Positions 48,300-53,688 of a stretch of 64,000 bases of DNA are shown piece by piece. A program made the translations under genes and the position numbers. The stretch's first letter is position 1. The number at the start of each line of letters is the position of its first letter. This DNA comes from Mariprofundus sp. (GTDB lineage: Bacteria > Pseudomonadota > Zetaproteobacteria > Mariprofundales > Mariprofundaceae). The stretch covers positions 1-64,000 of the forward strand of contig JAJFLH010000018.1 in the NCBI GenBank assembly GCA_021772775.1, in the 5' to 3' direction. The notes beneath the pieces are model-generated. The model had not been told where the DNA came from and made no database searches. It saw only the letters and a program-made list of their open reading frames with translations.

Positions 48300-50204
48300 C
48301 TATTGACTCGTTTGCTGCTCTATTTGACGCGAGGATGGGGGGAGAATCAAGGCCTGATTTTCCTGGCTGCGCTCGGGACGCATCAGCACTTTGATTTCGT
48401 CGCCAGCGCTAAAAATCAAATCATCATGCGGCACCAGCGTCATATCTTCACGTACAACGGCTACCGGCTGCACCCCATGCTGAATGCGCGCATCAGTCAT
48501 ACGCACACCAATCAGCAGTGAATCAGGCTCAATGTACCGTGACTCATATGCCAGACGTTTGCGGTAAGCCTGATCATGCCAGTAGGTATAATTATATGGT
48601 TTGGCAAACAAGCGCCGCACTTGTAACTGATGAATCATACTGGCGTGTTTCACTTCATCTTCTTCTTGCAAAGCAACATAAATTTCCGGGATATGAAATT
48701 GCTCGTGCGCCAGACGAGCGATCAATAGGTTATGATCTGATGAGCCTGTCATAATCAGAGCACAACCAATCTCTTCAGCATGGCAAATTTCCCAGTACAA
48801 TGGGTCCAGAGCATTACCGCAAATAGCACTATAACCTGAACGTTTCAGACCACCAATCACTTCAGAATTCAAATCCAAGAACCTGACTTCACGGTCTTCA
48901 CCCAAAGCTCGGCCAAGTTCAGCACCAATCTGACCACCACCAATAATCAATACCGAACGTTCATCACCACCTTCGATTTGTAATATCTCCTTCAAACGGC
49001 TGGCAAACAGACTATAACCAAGTACCGATACGATGATGATAATATAGACCATAGCCAGCAGCATCTCGGCTTGGGGATAGTTATTTTGCTGTAATATAAG
49101 AACAAATAGAGAGGTGATCGCTGCAGCCACCACGCCTCGCGGTGCCATGCCGGCCAAAAACAGACTTTCATTAAACGATAAACGACTACCCAGAGTAGAT
49201 AACAGGACAATCATTGGCCGTACAACGACAGCCAGAATCACGCATAGCAGCAGCCCTTGCCACAAATAATCATACAACACGGACAGATCCATATTGGCCG
49301 CTAATAACACGAACAATACCGAAATAAGCAACATCGAAAGACTACCTTTAAAGTGTTTGAGGCGTTGAATATCGTGCACTTCCATGCGTTGCAGGGTGGC
49401 TCCCATCATCAACATGGTTAGTAGGCCAGCCTGTTCACTGATCGAATCAGCCACCAGAAACAGTCCCCAAGCCGATGTCAGCGTCAGCACCGTACGAATT
49501 TCAAAATCCTTGGCCCAATGGCTACCCAAAAGCCAACCCAATAAACGTCCTCCGGCCAGCCCAATCGCAACACCGACAGCCACTTTATACAAAATATCCT
49601 GCGCTATTCCGGATGCACTCATATCTAAGGTCAACGCGACCTGTAACATCACAATAGCCAGAATAGCACCGATCACATCAATCAGCATCGCTTCGGCTGT
49701 TAATACATGACTGATATTTCTACCTAGCCGCATCTGCCGCACAATCGGCAAGATCACCGTTGGGCCACCGACCGACACCAGCGCACCAAATAGCAGCGCC
49801 AATGGCCAATCCATACCGGCAATAAAATGAGCTGCAGACCCACCAATAAACATCGTTAGTATTGGCCCGATTAACACCAAGTTTCCAACCACCCAGCCAT
49901 TTTCACGCAGGGCTTTCAGATTCAGATTCAATCCACCTTCAAATAGAATAATGGCCAAACCCAGTTCGATCAGGGTATGCAAAGCAGGCTCTATCGTTTC
50001 AACATGCAGGGCATGCAAACCAAATGGACCCAAGACCATACCTGCGGTAAGCCACAACAGAATGGGAGGAAAACGGTAGCGATTGGCCAGCACTTGAGCC
50101 GTTGTGGCAATCACAACAGCAATAATGAATGTCGAGGTAGGAGTCATAGCATCAGGGAACATTGCCAATGAGGATGCCGCCATAAGGGCTGGTCGGCAAG
50201 CCAT
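48300..50204 (-). CDS. Cation/proton antiporter (CPA2) with TrkA-N and TrkA-C domains
   Basis: 634 residues. The membrane part (about 20-390, 12-13 helices) is a Na+/H+ exchanger-type fold: RFPPILLWLTAGMVLGP, ILFEGGLNLNLKALR, GALVSVGGPTVILPIVRQMR. The cytoplasmic Rossmann TrkA_N domain starts near 412 (SVLIIGGGQIGAELGRALG) and is followed by a TrkA_C-like region ending near 620, so transport is probably controlled by NAD(H) or a nucleotide. Similar proteins exchange K+ or Na+ for H+. GGPT replaces the ND/DD motif often seen in helix 5, and ion selectivity is open. Start uncertain: ATGs at 50204, 50162 and 50147 are all possible; the first helix starts just after the last. Confidence 0.87.
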   Translation of the reverse strand: MACRPALMAASSLAMFPDAMTPTSTFIIAVVIATTAQVLANRYRFPPILLWLTAGMVLGPFGLHALHVETIEPALHTLIELGLAIILFEGGLNLNLKALRENGWVVGNLVLIGPILTMFIGGSAAHFIAGMDWPLALLFGALVSVGGPTVILPIVRQMRLGRNISHVLTAEAMLIDVIGAILAIVMLQVALTLDMSASGIAQDILYKVAVGVAIGLAGGRLLGWLLGSHWAKDFEIRTVLTLTSAWGLFLVADSISEQAGLLTMLMMGATLQRMEVHDIQRLKHFKGSLSMLLISVLFVLLAANMDLSVLYDYLWQGLLLCVILAVVVRPMIVLLSTLGSRLSFNESLFLAGMAPRGVVAAAITSLFVLILQQNNYPQAEMLLAMVYIIIIVSVLGYSLFASRLKEILQIEGGDERSVLIIGGGQIGAELGRALGEDREVRFLDLNSEVIGGLKRSGYSAICGNALDPLYWEICHAEEIGCALIMTGSSDHNLLIARLAHEQFHIPEIYVALQEEDEVKHASMIHQLQVRRLFAKPYNYTYWHDQAYRKRLAYESRYIEPDSLLIGVRMTDARIQHGVQPVAVVREDMTLVPHDDLIFSAGDEIKVLMRPERSQENQALILPPSSRQIEQQTSQ

Positions 50205-50302: not shown

Positions 50303-52810
50303 TTACTGCGTTTGAAGTATTTTTTCTTCCAAATCATCAAGTGAGTACGGCTTCTGAATGAATCCAGCTAAACCAGCATCTACAAATTTCTCCGTTACAT
50401 CTTTCACACTGTAACCTGAAGAGAGGATGACATTGATATCAGTGCGGATGCGTTTCAGTTCATAAAAACACTCCTCACCACCCATATTGGGCATGGTTAA
50501 ATCCAGTAATACCAATGATATTTGATCTTTATATTTACTAAACAGCTCAACACCCTCAACACCATCGTTCGATGTCATCACCTCAAAACCCAACTCTTCA
50601 AGCATTAATGTAGCGGAGGTGCGTACTATCAGCTCATCATCAATGACCAGTGCAGTGCCATTAAAGCGGTGATGCGGCTCTGGCGCTTTCTTCATTACTT
50701 CTTTGGGCTTAGTGACTACATGAGAAGAAATTGGAAGCACAACGGTAATCACTGTGCCCAGCCCTAAAGTAGAATTGATTCGAATGCCTCCGTGATGTCC
50801 TTTCACAATTCCCAGAAGTGCACTCATACCCAGCCCACGACCTGTGAACTTGGTACTGTAATAGGGATCAAATATCTTTAACTTGGTCTCCTTATCCATA
50901 CCGCAACCGGTATCGGAGACTTCAAGATAGACATAGCGCGTTTCCTCAAGGTATTGATAACCAAAATAGTCACTTAAAAACTCATCATCGACTTGCATTT
51001 CACCCGTTTTGATGGTGCAAAGCTTAACCTCACTACGCTCTCCATGAACATCTATTGCTTCGGATGCATTGGTAATCAGATTCAATAGAACCTGCTGTAT
51101 TTGGGATATATCCGCATCAATTGCAGGCAATGATTGGCTGAGCTGATAGTTGATAGTGACCTGCTTGGCGACTGCCACATCAATCAAATTGCCCATATCT
51201 TTAGCAACCTGAGAGAGATTAACTGGCGCAATAATAAACTGTCCTTTACCTGAATATGCCAACATTTGATTGCATAGTCCGGCCGCCGTATGACAGGCAT
51301 CGATAATCGCATCTACACTACTGCGTTTGCGTGCATGCATACTCGTATCCGGCTGACTCTGCATCAGGGAAGCATGCGCAAGAATTGCACTAAGTAAATT
51401 ATTGAAATCATGAGCAATACCACCAGCCAAAACACCCAAAGATTCAACTCTATCAATATGCTGTAACTTTGATTCGGTCAGATGCCGCTGACTAACATCC
51501 TGTATCACCATTAAAACTGCCGATTGACCTTCATAATCAATGCAGACTGAAGATGTATCGCTATACATAATGCCCTCTGGCGGATATATATAACACTCAT
51601 CAGTATGCAAATAATTCGTACTATTTTTCAACATATCTTCAATACGTTCAGCCACTGTAAATTGATCTTTAGGATGGATGAATTCAAGGATGTTTCGTCC
51701 AATTAGATGATCGGCTTGATCAGCAAAACCCAGTTTTTCGGCTATATATGGATTGGCATATAAGAGCGTTCCTCGTTGCTGAACGAGAATGCCCATGTGA
51801 CTCATCTCCACGAGGGTACTATAACGCTGATTACTGGTAAGCAGAGCCTGCTGGCTCGCCTCCAGCTCCGCAGTACGCGCTATAACCTCTTCCTCAATTA
51901 GCATGAAATTTTTTCTTGAACGCTGCATCCCCCATACGATAAAACATGTTAAGAACAGACTTAATGCCAATGATTGCCATGCCAGTACAGTGGGATGATC
52001 TTTTAGATATTGAGGTGTAGCAGTAAAATTCAATTGCCCGTTTTGACCGGAGAAAGAGAAAGAAACCTCATGATACAGATCAGTAGAATCATGACTATGA
52101 CCTGACGATGAATAAACTAGTTCTTTGCGATCACCATCAATCAGAAACAGAGAGATTTGCTGGGATGCCGTTGGCAAACCGTCAAGCGCACGTTCAATCA
52201 AACCTTCAATATCCCATACCGTTATCACAGCACCAATCTGTGTAGTGGCAAGCAACGCGCCTGTCTGCATTTGACTACTAACAGCAGCAATAAAGTTCAA
52301 TGCATTGACATGACTATGTTTATCTCTCTCCACCTGAACCTGAATCAGTCGCCCCTGTTGGGGTAAATAAGTGATTCCGGCATGACTATCATCCAGATAA
52401 ACAAAATCTTTATGAATAAGGCTCGAATGATTGCCTTTTTTAGCATAAATAACGTTTAAACTTTCAGCTTTCGTTGCTGTTGATTCAAAAACACCCCAGG
52501 CAATATTTAAAAGCTGGGGATCATCAATCAAGAGCCTTTCTGCCATCGGCATAAAATCCTCTGGCTCTTGCGGATTGTCATGCTCAATATTGATATCATG
52601 CTCAATAAGGAAACGCACATCAGCCACAGTTTTCTCAACCGATTCCAGCTCTTTCTGAACAGCTATCGCATAACTGGAAACGCTATATTCAAACTCTTTT
52701 GCAAAGCGCGAGAGTTCCCAGCTATGAATAAAAGCAAAGATTGCCCCGGACAGAAGAAGTCCAAAGCAGAGGATAAGAGTTATTCTATGTTTTGCATTTA
52801 CCTTCAGCAT
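50303..52810 (-). CDS. Hybrid histidine kinase with CHASE-like periplasmic sensor
   Basis: 835 residues. TM1 is about 10-30. A periplasmic domain of about 240 residues follows, with CHASE-like features (helical start SYAIAVQKELESVEKTVADVRFLIEHD, then FMPMAERLLIDDPQLLNIAWG). TM2 is about 278-300. One PAS domain (about 330-445) leads to the H-box [15 protein letters not shown] with His 467. The ATPase domain has LITNASEAI, DTGCGM and GRGLGMSALLGIV. The receiver has an acidic pair in VIDDEL, phospho-Asp 770 (LLDLTMP) and IQKPY Lys. CHASE domains in other proteins bind cytokinins or small organic ligands. The receiver-domain gene at 52839 lies 28 bp upstream on the same strand, so the two form a signalling unit. 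Confidence 0.92.
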   Translation of the reverse strand: MLKVNAKHRITLILCFGLLLSGAIFAFIHSWELSRFAKEFEYSVSSYAIAVQKELESVEKTVADVRFLIEHDINIEHDNPQEPEDFMPMAERLLIDDPQLLNIAWGVFESTATKAESLNVIYAKKGNHSSLIHKDFVYLDDSHAGITYLPQQGRLIQVQVERDKHSHVNALNFIAAVSSQMQTGALLATTQIGAVITVWDIEGLIERALDGLPTASQQISLFLIDGDRKELVYSSSGHSHDSTDLYHEVSFSFSGQNGQLNFTATPQYLKDHPTVLAWQSLALSLFLTCFIVWGMQRSRKNFMLIEEEVIARTAELEASQQALLTSNQRYSTLVEMSHMGILVQQRGTLLYANPYIAEKLGFADQADHLIGRNILEFIHPKDQFTVAERIEDMLKNSTNYLHTDECYIYPPEGIMYSDTSSVCIDYEGQSAVLMVIQDVSQRHLTESKLQHIDRVESLGVLAGGIAHDFNNLLSAILAHASLMQSQPDTSMHARKRSSVDAIIDACHTAAGLCNQMLAYSGKGQFIIAPVNLSQVAKDMGNLIDVAVAKQVTINYQLSQSLPAIDADISQIQQVLLNLITNASEAIDVHGERSEVKLCTIKTGEMQVDDEFLSDYFGYQYLEETRYVYLEVSDTGCGMDKETKLKIFDPYYSTKFTGRGLGMSALLGIVKGHHGGIRINSTLGLGTVITVVLPISSHVVTKPKEVMKKAPEPHHRFNGTALVIDDELIVRTSATLMLEELGFEVMTSNDGVEGVELFSKYKDQISLVLLDLTMPNMGGEECFYELKRIRTDINVILSSGYSVKDVTEKFVDAGLAGFIQKPYSLDDLEEKILQTQ

Positions 52811-52838: not shown

Positions 52839-53396
52839 TTAAATCGTCTGTTTTTGTGCCGTACTACTTAACAACTGGGATGACATGCCCACACCAAGCA
52901 AGATATTATTCAGGTCATGGCTAAGCTGATCACTATATTCGGCACTATCAACAACCGCTTGTTCAAGCTTCGATGTCGCTTCAGATAACACGATTTTCAC
53001 ATTTTCTACCTGACGACTCATCTCAATACGCTCTAAAGCGTGAATCATGCGTGTTTTGAGCAAAGTCGCATGAAATGGCTTGAGAATATAATCGTCTGCA
53101 CCTGCATCAATATAATGACTTATCTTATTTAGGTCATTACTGCCGGTAATCACAATAACGCGGGTATTTTTCAATTTGGGGTTATTTCTGAATGATTGCA
53201 GCAATGCGAAACTATCCGTTTCAGGAATAAGGATATCGAGTAAAATAAGGTCTGGCGTCTGTTTCTCGATCTCTTGTTCGGCCTCTTGGCCATCTTTCGC
53301 CTTTAGGGGCTCAAAACCAAAACTCTGAATCAGCTGATCCAGAATAATATGAACCATAAGTTCATCATCAATAAGGATTTTTGGTGTTTTATTCAC
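52839..53396 (-). CDS. Receiver-domain protein ending in an isolated H-box helix
   Basis: 185 residues. Residues about 5-122 form a receiver: ILIDDELMVH, phospho-Asp in LLDILIPETDSF near residue 54, VITGSND Thr, and LKPF Lys. A coiled-coil helix follows, ending YSDQLSHDLNNILLGVGMSSQLL, which matches the H-box region of histidine kinases (His in HDLNN). The protein then stops, without the second dimerisation helix or an ATPase domain. The GTG at 53396 is chosen because AAGGAG lies 5 bases upstream. It could be a truncated kinase or a protein that dimerises with, or receives phosphate from, the kinase encoded 28 bp downstream. Confidence 0.83.
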   Translation of the reverse strand: MNKTPKILIDDELMVHIILDQLIQSFGFEPLKAKDGQEAEQEIEKQTPDLILLDILIPETDSFALLQSFRNNPKLKNTRVIVITGSNDLNKISHYIDAGADDYILKPFHATLLKTRMIHALERIEMSRQVENVKIVLSEATSKLEQAVVDSAEYSDQLSHDLNNILLGVGMSSQLLSSTAQKQTI

Positions 53397-53688
53397 ATGC
53401 ACTCCTTGCAAACAACAACGAAAGAACAGATTCACTCCTTGCAGTTCATAGAGGAGACCCTGTCTTTATTCCATGTCTATAGTCATTCCATTACAATCTA
53501 AAATCTGATTGCTAACAGATCTACTTGAGCTTGTCATACCTCAAGAAACTCAAATTTTGATAGAGAAAAACAATGAAATTACTAAGGCTTTATCGTGGCC
53601 GTTTAACTTAACATGCTTCATCGCTGATGAAATGCTAGGATTCAGAAATTCAATTTAATATATCTCCGCATAATCAAACAGGTGAACC
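53397..53688. other. 292-bp non-coding region between divergent genes
   Basis: No gene is supported here. It separates the receiver-protein gene (minus) from gpmI (plus) and must hold both promoters. A CTTGAG/CTCAAG inverted repeat lies near 53525-53546, and ACTCCTTGCA occurs twice (53401 and 53435). No strong promoter hexamers stood out. Confidence 0.5.

Follow-up and report, generated by a model that had tools for sequence, protein, structure and literature searches.

Judged from sequence, the relatives of the gene and the pattern of its mutations show that REC-alpha1, a 185-aa receiver protein ending in a single H-box helix, is a real and maintained short form and not a broken gene. It represents a variation on the known class of HisKA proteins without an ATPase domain, with half a DHp retained. 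We tentatively regard it as a functional accessory of the adjacent hybrid kinase and suppose that it moves or removes phosphoryl groups, a reading to which we give somewhat less than even confidence. The host, Mariprofundus, is an iron-oxidising marine bacterium of the Zetaproteobacteria, and the gene lies on contig C10 of genome G000, in the window, i.e., the whole 64,000-nucleotide stretch of DNA analysed here. The features are as follows (basis in brackets).

52839..53396, minus strand: REC-alpha1 gene, type B, 185 aa, GTG start, TAA stop (ORF)
53401..53406 (approximate), minus strand: ribosome-binding site AAGGAG, 5 nt 5' of the GTG (sequence)
53043..53396, minus strand: receiver domain, residues 1-118, D54 and K106 kept, one beta1 codon fewer than in OFTM13 (Pfam, alignment, AlphaFold)
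52944..53039, minus strand: extension of receiver helix 5, residues 120-151, predicted as an unbroken helix (AlphaFold)
52869..52925, minus strand: H-box helix core LSHDLNNILLGVGMSSQLL, residues 158-176, H160 codon at 52919-52917 (sequence, AlphaFold)
50303..52810, minus strand: hybrid histidine kinase with sensor, PAS, HisKA with HDFNN, HATPase and receiver (Pfam)
48300..50204, minus strand: cation:proton antiporter-like gene following the kinase, here and in OFTM13 (named from sequence)

A first-pass annotation of this DNA had described a receiver protein that ends in a lone H-box helix, has a good ribosome binding site and precedes a full hybrid kinase, and our analysis bears out each of these points. 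The sequence 5' of the GTG is TTTGCAAGGAGTGCAT, with AAGGAG 5 nt before the start, and the start codon of the hybrid kinase lies 28 nt 3' of the REC-alpha1 stop on the same strand. The protein runs from the receiver through a long helix to LSHDLNNILLGVGMSSQLL and stops 25 residues past H160. This histidine sits in SHDLNN; the box reads H160 D L N N164 and fits the HE/DxxN/T H-box. Pfam recognises a single receiver domain (PF00072, residues 7-116, E 3e-22, 79 bits), and the alignment shows the acidic pair, D54, the T/S and K106 of a response-regulator receiver all in place. HisKA (PF00512) gave no match in the protein at E up to 1 and the HATPase domain of a histidine kinase is absent by Pfam; the protein ends after DHp helix 1 and so lacks the two-helix hairpin of HisKA/DHp proteins. 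The HisKA domain of the neighbouring hybrid kinase itself scores just under the Pfam cut-off.

One valine codon of receiver strand 1 is missing at 53367-53372 (ILIDDE vs ILIVDDE in OFTM13 and most relatives). The frame is intact, and AlphaFold still predicts a receiver fold with high confidence. The predicted monomer comprises this confident receiver, a continuous helix at residues 110-151, a break, and a helix at 156-182 that holds SHDLNN. Modelled by itself, the helical region has low confidence (pLDDT 69). A fold search matched RR468 and others, matches which are dominated by the receiver part, and the hydrophobic moments of both helices fit a hairpin weakly.

The ortholog in Mariprofundus sp. 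OFTM13 (L027) agrees in length and end point, shares 74% identity, and is followed by a kinase 58% identical to that of the window and then by the same antiporter-like gene. Orthologs in G014 and M. erugo P3 (G002; L028) also end after helix 1. Same-length homologues, for which the earlier annotation advised a check, therefore exist; relatives with a full ATPase domain, which it had named as the sign of a recent mutation, do not appear among the nearest ones, the REC-HDLNN family of types A-D described below. A tblastn search of the window for a remnant of helix 2 3' of the stop yielded short low-scoring matches only (best E 0.9). A kinase cut short by mutation was rejected on the strength of the relatives and the gene neighbourhood.

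The mutation pattern was assessed by comparing the window and OFTM13 genes with the Nei-Gojobori method. The proportion of nonsynonymous differences (pN) was 0.023 in the H-box core (residues 158-176), 0.108 in the receiver, 0.273 in the linker and 0.478 in the last eight residues, so that the core, identical at 18 of 19 residues with one amino-acid change, is the most constrained region. Fewer amino-acid-changing differences fall in the core than in the rest of the gene (Fisher p 0.006, uncorrected, one genome pair), and HDLNN is unchanged. Synonymous sites in the core are saturated (pS 0.835), which argues against constraint at the DNA level. This comparison supports strong purifying selection acting on the H-box helix. 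Together with the same-length homologues and the same kinase standing next in OFTM13, it speaks against a recent truncation.

REC-alpha1 belongs to a group that we define here as the Mariprofundus REC-HDLNN family, types A-D: proteins with a receiver and an HDLNN-type box and without an ATPase domain. Type A has a receiver and a complete two-helix DHp hairpin (Pfam HisKA, 34-41 bits), and is present in most Mariprofundus genomes, usually flanked by an mfd-like and an mgtE-like gene (named by sequence); the member in G003 has lost the entire DHp part. Types B, C and D keep DHp helix 1 only. Type B, the form in the window, occurs in four genomes, and type C, found in two, has a longer N-terminus and ends in HDLNN or HDLKN with about 20 further residues. 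Type D, a 272-aa protein on contig C25 of the same genome as the window, reads EHDLNNAMLALTTLKELMPNDEDKT and then stops; no ortholog of it was found in the class. Pfam HisKA and HATPase gave no match in types C and D, in which HDLNN or HDLKN recurs, and the receivers of types B, C and D keep their key residues essentially intact. In a tree of receivers, a fork (85/98) separates types A-D from 18 of the 19 other receivers included; the exception is the receiver of the window kinase, whose very long branch (3.75) falls within type A at an unsure position. Type B groups together (81/90), as does type C (98/89). Branching among the types is not resolved, so that helix 2 may have been lost once or several times; the complete DHp hairpin seen in type A was probably already present in the ancestral type.

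In the window's own genome, 55 DNA matches to HD[FILM]NN were counted vs 1 for a reversed control, so the matches are not due to chance. They comprise three HDLNN, 51 HDFNN and one unrelated HDINN. All three HDLNN boxes belong to the REC-HDLNN family and have 24-57 aa from the histidine onward, and each of the 51 HDFNN boxes is followed by at least 187 aa, in longer kinase-like frames which, from their length and the GGIAHDFNN context, are presumably kinases. With 51 such boxes in 3.1 Mb, the genome (G000) is rich in this apparent class of kinases.

We also looked for the short form beyond Mariprofundus. Among 299 Pseudomonadota genomes scanned for HDLNN followed by a stop, with leucine restricted to CTN and stops to TAA and TAG (the in-frame stop of the second copy in the own genome was read from its ORF), an in-frame stop together with an H-box-like helix was found only in Mariprofundus. 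Apart from two full kinases and a receiver protein of 539 aa, a profile search of the phylum returned nothing beyond Mariprofundus and one family member (E 1e-32). Full-length matches from Aeromonas and Vibrio were rejected, being ordinary response regulators whose output domains are of other kinds.

The neighbourhood suggests a candidate partner. A relative of the window kinase is present in every genome that has type B or C, namely G000, G013, G014 and G002. Type B adjoins it in two genomes (G000 and G013). The kinase of G014 is followed after 26 nt by the start of a type C gene, and the type C gene of M. erugo stands behind a lone receiver that is 38% identical to the terminal receiver of the window kinase. 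Of the two type B copies located away from the kinase, that of G014 carries a degraded box (HDIQG) and that of M. erugo lacks the histidine (LADGLN). An intact HDLNN may go with kinase adjacency, although the copies are few and this is suggestive only. In G018 the kinase is present and type B or C was not found at the thresholds used; its kinase (L135:6171-8696) carries HYFNN in place of HDFNN, without an acid beside the histidine.

Several known systems share parts of this arrangement. In a SMART survey, 1556 of 42417 HisKA proteins (3.66%) had no HATPase domain, 711 of them with the phosphatase motif (PMC3591291). These potential split or bifunctional kinases likewise have an HE/DxxN/T phospho-acceptor motif without an ATPase domain, and type A belongs among them, whereas types B, C and D hold helix 1 only and would be missed by a HisKA-based count since Pfam HisKA does not match them. 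The isolated DHp of HK853, without its CA domain, forms a dimer and dephosphorylates its receiver (PMC5727384). In HisKA proteins, D-x-x-N beside the histidine is the phosphatase motif, and HDLNN conforms to it. Spo0B and ChpT perform DHp-type phosphotransfer as dimers with a four-helix bundle (PMC3433190). As in REC-alpha1, their histidine lies on a DHp-type helix without autokinase activity; unlike it, they have the full hairpin and a C-terminal domain (ATPase-like in ChpT), while REC-alpha1 has its receiver at the N-terminus and ends without a second helix or any further domain. By analogy, type A could act directly as the isolated DHp or a Spo0B/ChpT-type dimer does. In the split kinase CheA3/CheA4 of Rhodobacter sphaeroides the phospho-acceptor histidine is also on a protein without a catalytic domain (PMC3591291), but CheA3 carries it on a P1 domain instead of a DHp helix and lacks a receiver at its N-terminus. 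We found no description of a receiver joined to half a DHp in open-access papers.

Beside the observed architecture, conservation, selection and neighbourhood, we infer for our preferred reading, the kinase accessory, a four-helix bundle, a partner and a chemistry. As the window protein has no second helix, the extended helix 5 is the obvious stand-in. This extension would replace the lost helix 2 and pack with the H-box helix as a hairpin, and two molecules might pair into a Spo0B-like four-helix bundle. H160-D161-x-x-N164 would then move phosphoryl groups to or from a receiver, or help to hydrolyse them there, the target being either the protein's own receiver or the terminal receiver of the adjacent hybrid kinase. 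The AlphaFold result, a monomer with two helices, speaks against this reading, as do the two type B copies with a degraded box or without histidine and the G018 genome, which has the kinase but gave no type B or C match at our thresholds. An extra phosphotransfer protein is also not required, since the genome holds 17 Hpt domains. To our knowledge, there is no example of a single DHp helix performing phosphotransfer or phosphatase chemistry. In its complete form, a minimal phosphotransfer or phosphatase module in small receiver proteins, with one H-box helix, the extended helix 5 as DHp helix 2 in an order-reversed hairpin and a hybrid kinase as partner, the proposal is rather unlikely. Activity of the lone helix would mean that a phospho-acceptor unit can work at less than the size of a two-helix DHp domain, and that receiver proteins with such a helix form a class invisible to domain searches.

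A kinase-binding regulator ranks close behind the accessory reading. As a regulatory decoy, its receiver would dock on the kinase DHp and the H-box helix would mimic helix 1 or insert beside it, tuning or blocking autophosphorylation without carrying phosphate; the heterodimer with the kinase suggested earlier falls under this heading. Such a role, which we consider doubtful, would suit the kinase adjacency in three genomes (type C included), the dispensable histidine in M. erugo, and the precedent of Osp and FixT, small response-regulator-like inhibitors that act on kinases, Osp having a receiver fold (PMC9430884). Osp, however, is a single receiver domain for which an H-box helix is undescribed, and it lacks several receiver active-site residues, whereas REC-alpha1 keeps D54 and K106. 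Conservation of H, D and N together would be unnecessary in a pure decoy. Moreover, the comparison with the H-box of the kinase at 50303, recommended in the first-pass annotation, does not support close kinship: the REC-alpha1 helix matches it at 7 of 29 positions, but type A proteins at 11-15 of 29.

Alternatively, the helix may be a structural leftover, kept for dimerisation or packing (in a phosphate sink or an allosteric partner), with the histidine an unused heirloom of the DHp ancestor. The M. erugo copy that lost its histidine and is otherwise kept, the loss of helix 2 and the G003 type A protein without its DHp part are in line with this. We nevertheless find it unlikely, as a packing helix would tolerate surface changes at H, D and N, while HDLNN is the same in the window and OFTM13 despite saturated synonymous sites and recurs, or appears as HDLKN, in types C and D. 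Finally, a dead fragment of a full REC-HisKA-HATPase kinase, produced by a recent frameshift or nonsense mutation, might be read from the one-codon deletion in the receiver and from the existence of such full kinases in the class (L143, L147), but is very improbable given the alike-ending ortholog, nearest relatives without an ATPase domain, the kinase gene only 28 nt downstream, the lack of a convincing helix-2 remnant downstream and the strong selection on the H-box. The earlier suggestion of a dead fragment is accordingly disfavoured for the window copy, by selection and relatives, and is plausible for the histidine-less copy of M. erugo.

With type A, several half-hairpin forms and a histidine-less form, Mariprofundus offers a direct comparison. 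In the type A protein of G005 (L141:4532-5173) the receiver is degenerate (GD for DD, Lys to Thr) and the HDLNN hairpin intact. In M. erugo (G002), the receiver of type A (L146:1489-2112) is dead (phospho-Asp to Pro, Lys to Ala) and its HDLNN hairpin intact, and type B (L140:6454-7035) has an intact receiver and has lost the histidine, so that the losses of the two copies are complementary.
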